Shown piece by piece: positions 52,407 to 58,155 of a stretch of DNA of 60,730 bases. The notes under the pieces were generated by a model. That model was not told the DNA's origin and did no database searches. It worked only from the letters and a program-made list of their open reading frames with translations. A program made the position numbers and the translations under genes. How positions within the stretch are numbered: position 1 is the first letter of the stretch; the number at the start of each line of letters is the position of its first letter. Origin of the DNA: Betaproteobacteria bacterium (lineage in GTDB: Bacteria; Pseudomonadota; Gammaproteobacteria; Burkholderiales; SHXO01); contig SHXO01000006.1 in the NCBI GenBank assembly GCA_009693245.1, positions 1 to 60,730 of the forward strand. The letters are read 5' to 3'.

Positions 52407-53536
52407 ATGAAGATCACCGACATTCAGGTACTGAGCCTGGCGGGGCCGAAGGTACCGTTCCCCATGAAGCCCGCTTGGGCGGCAGGGAGCCAATGGGAGC
52501 GTTATGGCGGCACGCTCGTCAAGGTGTTTACTGATGAAGGAATCGTTGGCCTGGGTTCCCCCGGCTACGTGGTGTCGCCCAAGATCGAGTCGTGGATCAA
52601 ACCTCAACTCATCGGGCAAGACCCCTTCGCCGTGGAACGCCACGCACGCGTATTTCGCGGAGCCGGAGAGGCTTGGGGAGTGGAGATTGCGCTCTGTGAC
52701 ATAATCGGCAAGGCCTGCGGGCAACCCGTGTACAAACTCTGGGGCGCTTATCGCGACCGGGTACCGGCCTATGCCTCATGTATCGAAGTGCGCACCCCGA
52801 AGCGGCGTGCCGCGGATATCGTGGCGGTTAAGGCGCAAGGCTGGCGCGCCGCCAAGTTGCGCCTCCACGATTGGACGCTCAAGGCCGACGTCGCGCAAGT
52901 GGAAGCGGTGCGCCGCGCCGTGGGAGAGACGACTTCACCCTTCTGGCCGATGCCAATCAGGCGCAACTCCCCGGCACTCAGCAACCAGATGAAAGCGCTG
53001 TGTGGCGCTACGAGTGCGCTCTGCATACCGCACGCGAGTTGGAGCGCTTAGGCGTGTATTGGTTGGAGGAGCCCATGGGGCGCTACGATTTTGACAACCT
53101 CACGCGCCTCGCGGATGCCGTGGATATTCTCATCGCGGGCGGAGAAAATAATCTGGGGCTGCACGAGTACCGCTAGCTGGTGGACCGCAACTGTTACGAC
53201 GTGCTGCAACCCGAAGCCATGGTGGGGGAGACCATGACGCAGTTGCGCAAGGCCTGCGCATATGCCGAGATGCATCACAAGCTGTGCGCGCCCCATCATG
53301 GCGGAGGCGGAATGGGATTTGTGGCGCATCTGCTCTTGTGCGCCGCCATTCCCAATTGCCCCTTTGTCGAAGTGTTTCACGACCCTCCGGGATTGACCAG
53401 CGACCTTTTCCAGTGGTACCTCAAGGAACCCATCGAGCTCGATCCCGCCGATGGCTGCATGCCCTTGCCGCGAAAACCACGCTTTGGTGTGGATCTGGAT
53501 GAGGACAAGATCCGCCGGTACGCCGTAACGAAATAG
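52407..53536 (+). pseudogene. Mandelate racemase/muconate-lactonizing-type enzyme, frameshift and in-frame stop
   Basis: ATG 52407 begins an enolase-superfamily sugar-acid dehydratase or racemase (KITDIQVLSLAGPKVPF, then EIALCDIIGKACGQPVYKLW and AAKLRLHDWTLKADV). Around 52922-52926 the reading moves from frame 3 to frame 2; one more G would restore RDDFTLLADANQAQLP, which carries a metal-binding Asp. The same frame then has YWLEEPMGRYDFDNLTRLAD (Glu ligand) and AGGENN, is stopped by TAG 53174-53176, and goes on with the end of the protein to 53536. Members of this family dehydrate sugar acids or racemise acids. Two lesions in about 375 codons. Confidence 0.78.
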
Positions 53537-53544
53537 GGCGAAAC

Positions 53545-54407
53545 CTAAGTCTCCTTGATTCTGAATTCGACGCGGCGGTTTTCCGGAGCGTTAGGTTCCG
53601 CTGCATTCAACGGCATGCGCTTGCCCATGCCCACCACCGTAATATTCTCGGGAGCAATTTGATGCACCTTCACGAGGTAGTTTTTCACCGCGCTCGCCCT
53701 AAGAAAGGACAAGATCAGGTTGTATTGATCGCTCCCGTGCGCGTCCGTGTGACCCTCGATAATGAGCTTGAGGCCGGGCCCCGCCATTTTTATTCCTTCG
53801 GCTAATGCGTCAAGCTGAGGTGCCGCATCGGGCATGATCTGCGCGGAGTTGAATTGGAACGGTACCAATAGTGCGATAGATTCGGAAATCCCAGTCTCGG
53901 TAGCGGGCGTGTTACCCATCTCGGATTCTTCTTGCACTCCAGTGGGGGGGGGCTTTTGCTGGCGCTGACGCCGAGCGAGGGGCAATCCTCTTGTACTGTT
54001 TGTGCGGCGGGGGAACCAGCAGGGTGCTTATCGAGAGGATATCCAGAAGGACGACTGACGCCACGAATCTTGAGCGATGCAGATGGCTCGTCTTCCGGCC
54101 CAGCCTTGTCCTCGTTTCCTTGAGTAAACGCCTCCTGGCAATCGGGTAAATTTGCTTGAAGCTGAGAAGCCGCCTTCACGCCACTGGCAACCACGGTTCC
54201 CGCGGCGGACAAAAGCCGTATCCCACGGGTCTTCACCACCGGGTCGTGGATTGGGGAACGAGAAAAAATCGAGGCTAACTGAACCGGATCCGGGATTTGT
54301 CCTGCTGGGAACACGATCGGTTCCCTCGCGTTCGCACCCGCTACGCCTGCTAGTAGGTGGGCCGAGGCTAAAACGGCTATCCACTTCATCTTCTTCGCGC
54401 GATTCAT
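53545..54407 (-). pseudogene. OmpA-family protein, frameshift in a G9 (C9) run; possible slippage site
   Basis: ATG 54407 starts a signal peptide (KWIAVLASAHLLAGVAGANA) followed by a low-complexity region of about 130 residues. At the G9 run 53944-53952 (C9 on the coding strand) the reading changes; a tract one base longer would join it to TGVQEESEMGNTPATETGIS and the OmpA domain, whose core reads LLVPFQFNSAQIMPDAAPQL and KLIIEGHTDAHGSDQYNLIL, ending in NRRVEFRIKET. That domain binds peptidoglycan in the periplasm. The gene diverges from the amyloid-type subunit gene with 228 bp between starts, so shared control is likely. A 9-base run can vary by slippage, so the gene may be switchable and not dead. 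Confidence 0.65.
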
Positions 54408-54425
54408 CGAGATCTCCTGGATTAA

Positions 54426-54441
54426 ATGTGCATGGGCACAT
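54426..54441. promoter_or_regulatory. Palindrome in the divergent promoter region, possible operator
   Basis: ATGTGC (54426-54431) and GCACAT (54436-54441) form a perfect 6-bp inverted repeat with a 4-base spacer. It lies 19 bp upstream of the OmpA-type start codon and about 200 bp before the subunit gene, within the 228-bp divergent region. Confidence 0.35.
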
Positions 54442-54450
54442 GACGCACGA

Positions 54451-54539
54451 TGAGTCGCAGCTTTCCGGGATTAGGTTTCGCCGGCGGCGGCGCGGTAGTG
54501 AATATTTCCTTGAACCGCTGTGAAAGATCTTGCGACTCA
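54451..54539. promoter_or_regulatory. Separated inverted repeat in the divergent region
   Basis: TGAGTCGCA at 54451-54459 recurs inverted as TGCGACTCA at 54531-54539, with 71 bases between. The spacing of about 80 bp centre to centre would suit two binding sites for one regulator, or a loop. No protein is known to bind it. Confidence 0.3.
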
Positions 54540-54635
54540 ATGGCCAGATGGGGCTTGAAGCATATGGGCCCTCATCGAACAAGAGGCCGGCATCCGCTGG
54601 TCTCAAACTCAATCACCTTACTTTGGAGATAAATC

Positions 54636-55064
54636 ATGAATGCAGTTCTGAAAGCTGGAATCGTAGCCTTGGGTTTTGTCTGTGCCGGTGCGTTTGCCGC
54701 CTCGACCGACGTCAAAGTCGAGAAGCTCGACCAAACTCAATCCGGAACCTACAACCGCCAGTATCTGGACCTGGGTAATGCGTTTGGAAAGGGCGCGAGC
54801 AAAGTCGATGCGAAGAATGTCAAGCAGTCCCAGAAGGGCGACCATAACATTCAACAGATGGCCATCGGCAATGCCAGCGGAGAAGGCAAGACCGATGTGA
54901 AGGTGGACAAGATCACGCAAACCCAGAGCGGGTCCCGTAACCACCAACTCATGACCATCGGCAATGCACGTTCCGGGAAGAGCAAGGTCGTTGCCAAGAA
55001 CGTGACCCAATCCCAATCGGGAAAGTATAACGACCAACGCATGAACATCGGTAACGCCAACTAA
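54636..55064 (+). CDS. Secreted amyloid-type repeat protein, curlin-like
   Basis: The 142-residue protein has a signal peptide (residues 1-22, ending AFA) and then four repeats at residues 26-49, 57-80, 88-111 and 118-141, spaced 31, 31 and 30 apart. The shared pattern is Q-x-Q-x-G-x(2)-N-x-Q-x(3)-[IL]-G-N-A, near the curlin pattern Q-x-G-x(2)-N-x-A but distinct. Repeats 1 and 3 read QTQSG; repeats 2 and 4 read KNV.QSQ, giving an A-B-A-B order. No Cys in the mature part, many Gln, Asn, Gly and Ser: the composition of functional amyloid subunits. GGAG lies at 54625-54628. A CsgG-like export lipoprotein gene is two genes downstream. Fibre formation is inferred. Confidence 0.75.
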   Translation: MNAVLKAGIVALGFVCAGAFAASTDVKVEKLDQTQSGTYNRQYLDLGNAFGKGASKVDAKNVKQSQKGDHNIQQMAIGNASGEGKTDVKVDKITQTQSGSRNHQLMTIGNARSGKSKVVAKNVTQSQSGKYNDQRMNIGNAN

Positions 55065-55077
55065 GCCAGTCAGCTTG

Positions 55078-55123
55078 CCTGGATCGTCTTGCGCCTGCCT
55101 GGCACGCGGCGATCCAGGTTTTT
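55078..55123 (+). terminator. Hairpin plus T-tract between subunit and export genes (terminator or attenuator)
   Basis: CCTGGATCG (55078-55086) pairs perfectly with CGATCCAGG (55110-55118), 9 bp, with a 23-base loop that can fold further (GCG/CGC), and TTTTT follows at 55119-55123. It begins 13 bases after the subunit stop. This has the form of a Rho-independent terminator. Since the next genes point the same way without an obvious new promoter, partial read-through could give much more subunit than exporter. Confidence 0.65.
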
Positions 55124-55177
55124 CGTCACATTGCACGGCGAATCCAAGCTCGTGCGGCCCAAATCTAGGAGTTTTAC

Positions 55178-55480
55178 ATGTACGCATTCAGAAGAGCGAT
55201 CTTGGCGGCATTCTCGGCGTTGAGCCTGGTGCTTTGTTTCCACAGCGCTCCAAGTGCAGGTGCGGCGGAAATGAGTATCGGCGACCGCGCCAAGCTGGCC
55301 AAGGAGCGCGCCAAACAAAGCGTCGCATTTGGCAGCAAATCCAAGGGCGGCGGCGGCGGGGATAATCCGTGCAGCCTGGATATCGGTAATGTATCCACCG
55401 GTGGCCCTGGTAGAGCACCCCGCGAGATCAATGTGTTCGTCCAAGGAGATGTCATCCAGGCGAATAGGAACTGCAAGTAA
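55178..55480 (+). CDS. Small secreted protein of the curli-like locus
   Basis: The 100-residue protein starts with a signal peptide (LAAFSALSLVLCFHSAPSAGAA). The mature part begins with a charged helix (GDRAKLAKERAKQSVAFGS), has a GGGGG linker, and ends with a compact domain: NPCSLDIGNV, PREINVFVQGDVIQANRNC. The two cysteines of that domain could form a disulfide. I have no family name for it; the DIGNV phrase echoes the IGN phrase in the amyloid subunit. AGGAG lies at 55167-55171, before ATG 55178. Its position between subunit and exporter suggests a minor subunit, nucleator or chaperone, which is inference. Confidence 0.65.
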   Translation: MYAFRRAILAAFSALSLVLCFHSAPSAGAAEMSIGDRAKLAKERAKQSVAFGSKSKGGGGGDNPCSLDIGNVSTGGPGRAPREINVFVQGDVIQANRNCK

Positions 55481-55503
55481 CGCCTAGTGCCAGAGGAATT
55501 GTC

Positions 55504-57048
55504 ATGAAAAATATTCGGAATCGGTTTCCTCGCAATGCGCTCTTGCCTCTAGCCTTGGGCGGATTGTTGGACGGTTGCACCGTCATGGATGTGAAGAAGG
55601 ACGCGGTAGCCAAGACCGAGGCGGCCAGGAAAGGCCCGGAGTCCGCACCCCAGCGTTCGATCACCAATTTCTCCGCTGCCCTGGGGTGCATGGACAGAAT
55701 GCTCATGGACTACGGCGTGCGCGATGTGTCCGTCCTCGTGGAGGACATCACGGACCAGACCAAGAAGGTCAATGCGGGCACCAAGGACATGCTCATCTCG
55801 GCGGTGTCCGATATGACCAAGCGCAGCCGCGCTGTCAAGCTCATCGCTTTCGGCTCGGATTCGGGAAATCTGGTGTCCTTTCTTCAGCAAGCCGAGCGTA
55901 AGCAGGTATACGAAGTTGTTCCGCAGTACGACATTAAAGGTTCCATCACGCAGTGGGACGAAAACGTCATCCAGAAGCAGAAGGAACTAGGCGTGGGCTA
56001 CGAGTCCAATAGCGCGGGATTGAACATTGGAGTCGCCAAGGATGCGGCCTCCTCGGTACTAGGTTTGGATCTCACCATTCTTTCCACTTCCGATTTGTCG
56101 GTCGTCCATGGGGTGACATCACGCAATACCGTGGTCATCTTCAAGGAAGGTTCGGGCTACGACGGGGACGCGCGTATCAAGAAGTTCGGCATTAATTTCA
56201 GCATGAATCTCTCCAAATCGGAGGGGCAATCGCAGGCGCTTCGAGGCCTGGTGGAGTTGGCCTCCATCGAACTCTTCGGCAAGCTTACCAAGACTCCTTA
56301 CTGGAGCTGTCTCTGGTCGCCGTCCAACAATGAAACCGTCCGCGAGGAGATCGCGGATTGGTTCGATGCCATGTACGCGAACCCCGTTGAACTCGTTACC
56401 TACTTCCAGAAGCAATTGCACCAGCGCGGCTACTACTCTGGCAAAGCCGATGGGCAACCGAACCCCCAGCTACGTGATGCGGTCTCCAAATATAGAGTGG
56501 CCTTGGGCTTGAGCGACGAGCCAAGGTTGGACTTCGAATTCTTCGACGCCTATCTGAAAGCGAATCATAGCGATGTCCTAGCGAAAAACCCTCCTTCGGC
56601 CACCAAGGAAGACGAACCCGTGGCTGTAGGGGAGGATCTGAAGATGGATGTCGCCGCCACCAACAAGACTGGAAAGTTCTCGGCCGTCGAGGTCATCAGC
56701 TTAACTGTAAAACCCAGCCGCGATGCTCATGTGTACTGCTACATGCAGGACGAGACGCGAAAAATCATGCGCTTTTATCCGAACCGGTTCAGCAAGAGCG
56801 CGCTCGTACATAGTGCGGTGCCGCTCAACCTCCCCGACAACAAGCACTTAGAGATCGTCGCCAACGCAAAACGCGCAAAAGAGACCGTGGCTTGTTTCGC
56901 CACGGAGCAGGATATCTCCAGCGGTCTATCGCCTACGGCCGTGGGAACCGATTTTGAGTATCTGCCGGTTAAGTCGCTTTCCGAAGTGCGCGACCTGTTC
57001 GTCATCGCTTCCGATGGCAAGATTGGAGAGGGGTATTTTCATGTCTAA
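55504..57048 (+). CDS. CsgG-like outer-membrane lipoprotein with peptidoglycan-binding and DUF4384-like domains
   Basis: The 514-residue protein has a signal with a lipobox-like LLDGC (Cys25; Asp before Gly is unusual). Residues about 60-270 resemble CsgG, the curli export channel: VSVLVEDITDQTKKVNAGTK, VPQYDIKGSITQWDENV, GLDLTILSTSDLSVVHGVTS, NTVVIFKEGSGYDGDARI, LRGLVELASIELFGKLTK. Residues 295-335 form a PG_binding_1-like repeat (FQKQLHQRGYYSGKADGQPN). From about 395 there is a DUF4384-like domain (SLTVKPSRDAHVYCYMQDE, IMRFYPNRF). Ordinary CsgG ends after about 270 residues, so this is an extended form that could anchor the pore to the cell wall. It follows the small secreted protein by 23 bp. 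Confidence 0.75.
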   Translation: MKNIRNRFPRNALLPLALGGLLDGCTVMDVKKDAVAKTEAARKGPESAPQRSITNFSAALGCMDRMLMDYGVRDVSVLVEDITDQTKKVNAGTKDMLISAVSDMTKRSRAVKLIAFGSDSGNLVSFLQQAERKQVYEVVPQYDIKGSITQWDENVIQKQKELGVGYESNSAGLNIGVAKDAASSVLGLDLTILSTSDLSVVHGVTSRNTVVIFKEGSGYDGDARIKKFGINFSMNLSKSEGQSQALRGLVELASIELFGKLTKTPYWSCLWSPSNNETVREEIADWFDAMYANPVELVTYFQKQLHQRGYYSGKADGQPNPQLRDAVSKYRVALGLSDEPRLDFEFFDAYLKANHSDVLAKNPPSATKEDEPVAVGEDLKMDVAATNKTGKFSAVEVISLTVKPSRDAHVYCYMQDETRKIMRFYPNRFSKSALVHSAVPLNLPDNKHLEIVANAKRAKETVACFATEQDISSGLSPTAVGTDFEYLPVKSLSEVRDLFVIASDGKIGEGYFHV

Positions 57049-57409
57049 ACTAAGTAAACGCCGGACAAACGGGCGTGCACCCGTTTGGCTATCTTCAATA
57101 GCTCTCATTGTCACTCCCCTCGCGGCGTTAGCGGCGACCAATTTCTCGCCATTGGCCGAGGTGGAAAGGAAGGGACTGCAAGTGGATGCTGGAACACCCG
57201 CGGCGGCCGAACCGGAGAAAAACGCCGCGAAGACCAACCTACGCTGTTGGCAGTACGGGCGCCTGCTATTCGAGGAAGTAGGTTTGGAGTTGGCGAGCGA
57301 CCAATTCAACCGTTTGCTTACACTGCAGCAAGGGTCCCAGGGCAAGCCCCGTTTGCACTTGGTCGAAACTCCCAACGCCACGTGTCTGTTGAAAGAGTAC
57401 AAGCCTTGA
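57041..57409 (+). CDS. Secreted protein of unknown function in the curli-like locus
   Basis: ATG 57041 overlaps the end of the CsgG-like gene by eight bases, so translation is coupled. The 122 residues contain a long signal peptide (APVWLSSIALIVTPLAALAA), a linker rich in Ala/Glu, and a domain with two Cys (NLRCWQYGRLLFEEVGLELA, then NATCLLKEYKP). No family was recognised. The periplasm is its likely place; a role as accessory of the CsgG-like channel, in the manner of CsgE or CsgF, is possible from position only. Confidence 0.65.
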   Translation: MSKLSKRRTNGRAPVWLSSIALIVTPLAALAATNFSPLAEVERKGLQVDAGTPAAAEPEKNAAKTNLRCWQYGRLLFEEVGLELASDQFNRLLTLQQGSQGKPRLHLVETPNATCLLKEYKP

Positions 57410-57429
57410 TTTCGCTGGCGCGCAGTTGG

Positions 57430-58155
57430 ATGGCTTCGTCCATTAAGAGCGTTGCAGCCGCTGTCTTGCTGGGTTGCTGCGGCGTAGCCTACTGCGACGC
57501 TGAGTTGGGCTCCCGAAGTATCTGGGTGTCCAATTTCAATGGCGTAACGCTACGCGTCCCAGGGGATCTCTACATCACGCAAAATGGCACGCAGGCTATG
57601 GTCGTGGAGGCCGAGCCAAAGGTGCTGGCACGCATTCAGGCGCGTGTGCACAAAGGCATGCTCATCATAGACGCGGTTGGCGGGGGATTTCAAACCCAGA
57701 AACCGCTCCGGTTCCGGTTGGGCGTGAAGTCGTTACGGGACCTGGCATTGGAGAGTTCCGGGGATATTCACGCTGGTTCATTGAGGGTGGACATGCTGCG
57801 AATCGCATCGGATGGCAGCGGATCGGTCAGCGTGGAGGAGTTGATTGTGGGGCATCTACAGGTGGAACTCACCGGCTCGGGAGAGATCCGCGTAGCCGGG
57901 GGCCGGGTCACCGAGCAGATCGTTAGCCTGGACGGTTCCGGCGACTATCGCGCACCGCGCTTGCGTGGCCAGACCGTCCTGGTGTCATTAAGCGGCAGTG
58001 GCAGCGCTTACGTGATGGCAACCGGTCGGCTGCACGCGGGGATTTCGGGTAGCGGTGACATCGTCTACTTCGGGCACCCGCGAGTGAGCGAATCTGTCAG
58101 CGGATCGGGCCAAGTCATCGCGTCTAATGGCAAAGAGCGCGGTCGACAAGAATAG
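57430..58155 (+). CDS. DUF2807-type secreted beta-repeat protein
   Basis: The 241-residue protein starts with a signal peptide (SIKSVAAAVLLGCCGVAYC). Its body is a beta-strand repeat with many S/G turns: SSGDIHAGSLRVDML, SDGSGSVSVEELIVG, LTGSGEIRVAGG, LDGSGDYRAPRL, LSGSGSAYVMATGRLHAGIS, GSGDIVYFGHP, ending VSGSGQVIASNGKE. This is the GSG-rich DUF2807 (head GIN) pattern, which forms a beta-helix-like fold on the cell envelope. ATG 57430 is preferred; TTG 57406 in frame would overlap the previous stop. It closes the locus, so it may be part of the matrix or an anchoring factor. Confidence 0.75.
   Translation: MASSIKSVAAAVLLGCCGVAYCDAELGSRSIWVSNFNGVTLRVPGDLYITQNGTQAMVVEAEPKVLARIQARVHKGMLIIDAVGGGFQTQKPLRFRLGVKSLRDLALESSGDIHAGSLRVDMLRIASDGSGSVSVEELIVGHLQVELTGSGEIRVAGGRVTEQIVSLDGSGDYRAPRLRGQTVLVSLSGSGSAYVMATGRLHAGISGSGDIVYFGHPRVSESVSGSGQVIASNGKERGRQE

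Follow-up and report, generated by a model that had tools for sequence, protein, structure and literature searches.

A recurrent gene cassette with a CsgG/HfaB-fold lipoprotein and a predicted beta-solenoid repeat protein in a betaproteobacterial genome

Results

A cassette of five co-directional genes and a divergent OmpA-domain gene

The subject of this analysis is a gene cassette in a contig of a Betaproteobacteria bacterium (SHXO01000006.1, assembly GCA_009693245.1), which is part of a 3.0 Mb genome of 130 contigs rated 97% complete. The window, meaning the whole stretch of DNA that was analysed, comprises 60,730 nucleotides. An earlier annotation made by a model from the letters of the DNA (the sequence-only reading) had described here a curli-like locus with an unusual gene set that might form a class of its own. 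The cassette comprises five genes in one direction, named A to E (54636-58155), and an OmpA-domain gene that diverges from them:

53545..54407, minus strand: OmpA-domain gene, with its N-terminal part at 54407-53802 and its OmpA domain at 53985-53545 (Pfam OmpA, E 1.7e-20)
54636-55064, plus strand: gene A, putative fibre subunit of 142 amino acids with a signal-like start (motif count with shuffles, AlphaFold2 model)
55178-55480, plus strand: gene B, 100 amino acids, signal-like start and a C-terminal IGN...GDVIN..C(K/R) pattern
55504-57048, plus strand: gene C, CsgG/HfaB-fold, lipoprotein-like, 514 amino acids (Pfam, AlphaFold2 model, fold search, hhalign); by Pfam and the model, CsgG/HfaB-fold domain at about residues 50-272, PG_binding_1 at 297-337 and DUF4384 at 397-469
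57041-57409, plus strand: gene D, 122 amino acids, signal-like start and an RCWQxGRL motif
about 57430-58155, plus strand: gene E, DUF2807 (head GIN domain) beta-repeat protein (Pfam, E 2.6e-36)

Sites resembling ribosome-binding sites precede A, B, C and D when judged by eye, the start codon of E is placed at 57430 within an open frame that begins at 57085, and the G+C content of the cassette genes is 53-60%, compared with 60% for the window. The described layout of five same-strand genes and one divergent OmpA gene stood as far as the five genes are concerned, while the OmpA gene turned out to occupy two frames instead of one. The switch of frame lies near nine consecutive G (53944-53952), a stretch unmatched in length by any other G or C run of the window, and points either to a fault in the assembly or to slippage at a phase-variation site. 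Next to the OmpA gene, at 52407-53536, is a stretch that is open only piecewise (52407-53051, 52871-53176 and 53180-53536) and presumably belongs to the enolase superfamily.

Gene C belongs to the CsgG/HfaB channel superfamily by profile and fold

The third gene had been called CsgG-like, a likeness that rests on Pfam in some relatives and on profile-profile and fold comparison. In the window protein Pfam finds PG_binding_1 and DUF4384 only, and the Pfam CsgG model matches neither this protein nor any other place in its genome. Across 59 aligned family members (E<=0.1), DUF4384 was matched in all 59, PG_binding_1 in 44 and CsgG in 18 (best 4.6e-5), and the lipobox-like Cys25 is kept in 51 of the 59 rows. 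The Pfam CsgG cut-off was passed by an HfaB-like protein (locus L106) and by the CsgG of locus L116. Searching the PDB with the single C sequence gave nothing useful, and of the 11 matches to the family profile, none better than E 0.0092, 10 lie over the peptidoglycan (PG)-binding part.

The AlphaFold2 model of C (predicted TM score, pTM, 0.70) places strands at 142-153, 179-194, 200-215, 220-227 and 230-237, which may form two membrane hairpins. CsgG was the best match of this model in Foldseek (E 1.7e-6) and again in a second fold search (Z 14.2 over 170 residues at 3.8 Å), followed there by PelC, FlgT and TolB (Z about 9 to 10.8 over 114-150 residues). The CsgG likeness of the 55504-57048 product was thus borne out by fold and by the Pfam hits in 18 of 59 relatives, with the window protein itself below Pfam detection.

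Profile comparison with hhalign related C to HfaB (98.2%, E 4e-14, 242 columns) and to CsgG (93.6%, E 2e-7, 231 columns); the closest pair of the three is HfaB with CsgG (99.6%). Cys62 is present in 33 of 33 C rows and in 9 of 9 HfaB rows, and in 0 of 9 CsgG rows. A second cysteine, C269, is paired by hhalign with the second, invariant cysteine of HfaB, though in the MAFFT alignment just 2 of the 9 HfaB rows have it there. In a quick tree the C, HfaB and CsgG proteins each formed one group (SH-aLRT 88, 94 and 98, respectively), the order of the groups being provisional because the search was quick and long branches were flagged. Judged by this profile-level homology across the CsgG domain, C is a member of the CsgG/HfaB channel superfamily; it is nearer to HfaB than to CsgG by profile and carries additional domains, both of which the sequence-only reading had missed.

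Further channels of this kind were seen at other loci. L023 and L025 encode C-like proteins of 373 and 399 residues without a DUF4384 match, near OmpA-like and small secreted genes, with a DUF2807 neighbour at L023 and a 1214-residue repeat protein at L025. At L114 and L115, HfaB-like genes are followed by genes for Ser/Thr- or Gly/Asn-rich secreted proteins, and these two form a pair of their own in the tree.

Gene A encodes in-register repeats and a predicted four-rung solenoid

The repeats claimed for the first gene proved real: protein A has four repeats of 30-31 residues, with QxQxGxxNxQ in register at residues 33, 64, 95 and 125. In 20,000 shuffles of the mature sequence the minimal QxGxxN motif occurred 0.12 times on average and never more than 3 times. 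The minimal motif X6QXGX2NX10, as given in a passage of PMC3521004, is present four times. The AlphaFold2 model (33-row alignment; pTM 0.77; mean predicted local distance difference test, pLDDT, 88; 119 of 142 residues at pLDDT >=90) has eight strands, two per repeat, and confidently predicts a four-rung beta-solenoid. Its two best PDB matches are functional amyloid fibrils, CsgA and then FapC, both weak in Foldseek (FapC with E 0.010 and probability 0.09).

The spacing of QxGxxN is mostly 30-35 residues in the 24 relatives of A with at least three motifs, compared with an average of 23 +/- 5 residues for curlin repeats in a passage of PMC10192328, and two or more A genes occur at 23 of the 81 loci introduced below. 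For the family as a whole, Curlin_rpt is not among the Pfam matches listed, which cover 25 of 45 families, and a match of a single member is possible. By its repeats, predicted solenoid and spacing, A resembles a solenoid subunit of the curli kind in which the repeat is longer, a resemblance that need not mean descent from curlin.

The small proteins B and D are conserved and show no detectable relation to CsgE, CsgF or HfaA

Both small proteins keep two invariant cysteines, C65 and C99 in all 32 alignment rows of the B family and C69 and C115 in all 31 rows of the D family, the latter also sharing a CWQxG motif with W in at least 90% of rows. Pfam matched neither window protein and found no family common to more than one member of either group. 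With hhalign neither B nor D could be related to CsgE, CsgF or HfaA, and the idea that they are diverged CsgE or CsgF was rejected, the best alignment reaching 4.3% over 4 columns. Homology of A to CsgF was likewise rejected, since the match (40.5% over 29 columns) is confined to the signal-peptide region.

The gene set recurs in other genomes

A genome contig scan returned 213 stretches with relatives of C, of which the best 80, leaning to close kin, were kept and, together with the window, make up 81 loci. Record labels assign 13 of these to an alphaproteobacterial set; among the other 68 are L063 (Hyphomicrobiales by its label), L071 (Geobacteraceae by its label) and records that name no class. 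With jackhmmer, A was found at 66 of the 81 loci, B at 67, D at 61, a DUF2807 gene at 42 and an OmpA gene at 57. Among the non-alphaproteobacterial loci, A lies within about 6.5 kb of C in 36 of 36 cases with more than 3.5 kb on both sides of C (either strand), and in 46 of 54 it sits on the strand of C, directly upstream. Where the flank sufficed, B was close to C in 63 of 64 of these loci, D just downstream in 50 of 59, OmpA present in 31 of 36 and DUF2807 in 25 of 36. For both sets together and with enough flank, 39 of 47 loci have OmpA no more than about 4.5 kb from C and 26 of 47 have DUF2807 near it; the order A-B-C-D on one strand was seen in 36 of 58. The alphaproteobacterial loci have A upstream in 2 of 13, B in 1 of 13 and D downstream in 6 of 12.

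Two further samples were drawn, 200 genomes of the same order and 299 of the phylum. In the order sample (C at E<=1e-20, B and D at E<=0.001, at most 22-23 candidates scored per genome), C was present in 10 genomes, B in 6 and D in 5, and every detected B or D lay within 1.5 kb of C. These B and D matches are partly by construction, because the family models contain proteins from records that match some of these genomes; the informative part is that the 190 genomes without C yielded no B or D. CsgF was found in 3 of the 200, all of them without a C match. The genus of the window's genome is represented in this sample by three more genomes, which gave no C; two of these are just 68% and 78% complete. 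Among the phylum genomes, C was matched at E<=1e-50 in 17, including the window's own, and most other matches cover the PG-binding or DUF4384 part alone. A chance co-occurrence of the gene set is rejected by the association counts across the loci and the 200 order genomes.

No relative of C was found among phages, and among 72,556 plasmid records 2 gave a match, both from Azospirillum and annotated as DUF4384. One of the 81 loci, L037, carries A, B, C, D, E and OmpA in a record titled as plasmid pVarWS11_2 of Variovorax sp. WS11, and for this reason the cassette may move between strains. Seven Azospirillum loci (L136, L090, L095, L096, L101, L103 and L104) combine C with OmpA and a second C-like gene, with A and B not detected, and perhaps represent a different use of the same channel. 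L136 has a second DUF4384 gene and, in addition, sigma-70 and zf-HC2 genes upstream and an adenylate/guanylate cyclase gene.

Regulatory and protease-like neighbours

Members of one protein cluster, of extracytoplasmic function (ECF) sigma factors, lie beside the cassette in 29 of the 81 loci, with one of them confirmed by Pfam, and members of another, of likely anti-sigma factors so named from position and reading, in 21, two that were scanned giving no Pfam match. Like the caspase-motif genes, they mostly point the same way as the cassette. Caspase-motif genes occur at 30 loci (e.g., L035:4997-5833), 38 of these 42 genes being on the same strand as C and one being confirmed as Peptidase_C14. 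The three counts (29/81, 21/81 and 30/81) are raw occurrences at the loci and not enrichments over the background of those genomes.

Such neighbours would suit a reading in which C is a periplasmic scaffold for envelope stress or lipoproteins, sharing a CsgG-like fold in the manner of PelC, FlgT and TolB and working with the caspase and sigma genes, with A a solenoid adhesin exported by another route. The matches of those three proteins to the C model agree with it as well, yet CsgG ranks above all of them in Z and in aligned length, and the window contains no caspase-motif gene; we regard this scaffold as very unlikely.

Comparison with curli, Hfa and Fap

With curli (CsgA-G, type VIII secretion) the cassette shares a CsgG-fold lipoprotein, C matching CsgG in its modelled fold and being a putative outer-membrane protein, and a QxGxxN subunit predicted as a beta-solenoid. 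It differs in repeats that are mostly longer and are not recognised by Pfam, in a channel fused to PG-binding and DUF4384 domains and in its partners B, D, DUF2807 and OmpA. That no csgE or csgF is recognisable at the locus had been noted before and extends to the whole genome, where CsgE, CsgF and the Pfam curlin repeat all gave 0 matches with positive E. coli controls; CsgC and CsgD were not seen in the cassette, no genome-wide search having been aimed at them.

The further claim that known curli operons always pair CsgG with CsgE and CsgF was overstated. According to Dueholm 2012 (PMC3521004), curli systems lacking csgE occur in Alphaproteobacteria and in one Firmicute, some half of the alphaproteobacterial genera have neither csgE nor csgF, and in many Alphaproteobacteria the subunits alone were found, the text being ambiguous on CsgG where csgF is missing. 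In our material, locus L116 has curlin, CsgF and CsgG without a CsgE gene between them, and just ahead of eight CsgG controls the genes read as CsgE-like and CsgF-like. The alphaproteobacterial csgH-type curli outlined in the same paper resemble the cassette in having subunits without csgE, in some genera also without csgF, and an additional small gene; they differ in that their subunits are recognised by curlin models, our comparison of B and D covering CsgE, CsgF and HfaA.

The cassette might be taken for a genuine curli operon, diverged and without its former csgE and csgF, with the CsgG fold of C, the minimal motif in A and the reported alphaproteobacterial losses (of csgE and, in part, csgF; passages of PMC3521004) all speaking for it. 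However, C stands outside the group of nine CsgG controls (in a quick tree with long branches) and nearer to HfaB by profile, shares Cys62 with the HfaB rows and with none of the CsgG rows, and is accompanied by A-family repeats longer than those of curlin (mostly 30-35 residues against 23 +/- 5; passage of PMC10192328) and by B and D without a detectable relation to CsgE or CsgF, while the CsgF genomes (3 of 200) and the C genomes (10 of 200) of the order do not overlap. We consider such an origin distinctly unlikely.

In the Caulobacter holdfast anchor HfaABD, HfaB is the nearest relative of C by profile, with two conserved cysteines aligned in hhalign, whereas the nine HfaB-like proteins that we aligned (284-338 residues) end soon after the channel domain. 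OmpA and DUF2807 partners are not known to be part of Hfa. An anchor complex of the HfaABD type, tying a surface polysaccharide to the cell without free fibres, would explain the proximity of C to HfaB and the conserved first cysteine, and passages of PMC6707917 describe HfaA as curlin-like and HfaB as CsgG-like. Against it, A, B and D show no detectable similarity to HfaA (hhalign at most 21 columns and 11.4% probability), the HfaB equivalog NF037935 gives C 17.8 bits against a cut-off of 300 and has no match in the genome at E<=0.001, and no polysaccharide gene is found among the neighbour clusters identified, which are some of all clusters and were not supplemented by a genome search for such genes. 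We judge an anchor of this kind unlikely.

The comparison with Pseudomonas Fap covers structure, with the FapC fibril as the second, weak structural match of A. The Fap export channel FapF is a different protein from the CsgG type. We did not file the cassette under curli, because CsgE, CsgF and the Pfam curlin repeat were sought and not found, nor under Hfa, because an HfaA partner was not detected and C remains below the HfaB cut-off.

Discussion

We consider it fairly probable that the cassette is an extracellular fibre system of the curli/holdfast-anchor type, in which secretion and amyloid formation are deduced from the gene set and models, and it probably works like curli and Hfa. Speaking for it are the predicted solenoid of A with two amyloid fibrils as its nearest PDB structures, the CsgG fold and HfaB profile match of C, and the association of the genes across loci. 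Several observations weigh against this. Pfam Curlin_rpt matched neither A nor eight of its relatives in a scan that did match the curlin of L116, and among 91 members of the A family just 29 carry at least two minimal curlin motifs. The structural match of A to CsgA is weak in Foldseek (E 0.0094, probability 0.21, TM 0.16-0.19), and the Z of 8.9 from a second aligner (next row 5.6) comes with a root-mean-square deviation of 8.9 Å, such a Z being indecisive for repeat proteins according to the tool. In the model of C, the loop 157-178 is below pLDDT 50. The OmpA gene of the window is out of frame, its relatives matching the N-terminal part and the OmpA domain in different frames. Finally, A is missing upstream of C in 11 of the 13 alphaproteobacterial loci, no A was found in the stretches examined of L063, L064 and L091, and in L136 (Azospirillum ramasamyi plasmid NZ_CP029832.1) the position of A and B is taken by two DUF4399 genes.

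In curli, CsgE gates the pore and CsgF couples it to the growing fibre. In a fibre system built from the cassette, A would cross the inner membrane by Sec, as its signal-like start suggests, remain unfolded and leave through an oligomeric outer-membrane ring of C, folding outside as a beta-solenoid and stacking into an amyloid-like fibre. Below the pore, in the periplasm, would lie the PG-binding and DUF4384 domains of C, which may anchor the pore and perhaps gate it, the role of CsgE in curli. Judged by their conservation, B and D may be exported, dedicated accessory factors with one likely disulfide each; of the two, B, with its strand-like GDVIN..C end, appears more likely to be a nucleator or cap. 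Attaching the assembly to peptidoglycan could be the task of the OmpA-domain protein, while the DUF2807 protein may act as a surface adhesin.

Since the set recurs, C has the CsgG fold and neither CsgE, CsgF nor a Pfam curlin was found elsewhere in the genome, none of the three outcomes that the sequence-only reading had named as fatal to its proposal (a gene set confined to this genome, no structural match of C to CsgG, a CsgE/CsgF pair beside a true curlin elsewhere) came about. Of its suggestion of a separate class, the part that is well supported is a separate CsgG/HfaB branch with helpers of its own; the rank of a class is possible. We tentatively propose, at somewhat less than even confidence, a third nucleation-precipitation secretion class beside curli and Hfa, in which a peptidoglycan-anchored channel with built-in gating domains and two disulfide mini-proteins replace CsgE and CsgF, beta-solenoids with repeats of mostly 30-35 residues, longer than in curlin, are exported, and some lineages have wired the system to an ECF sigma factor, an anti-sigma factor and a caspase-like protease.

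No published account of the cassette was located in searches for curlin with DUF4384 and for CsgG with DUF2807, which covered mostly open-access literature with preprints outside it, so that an earlier description is possible. By title or abstract, none of the DUF4384 papers found is about curli, and a passage of PMC10128055 gives annotation names only, with no description of the cassette.

Most of what is understood of functional amyloid secretion comes from curli. If the proposal is true, a recurrent relative with its own periplasmic domains and helpers would allow one to ask which of the tasks of CsgE and CsgF are essential. An amyloid-like matrix would then reach lineages in which the genes have gone unnoticed, as in the Azospirillum record where C is named only as a DUF4384 protein, and the family would offer new pores together with solenoid subunits of different repeat length.

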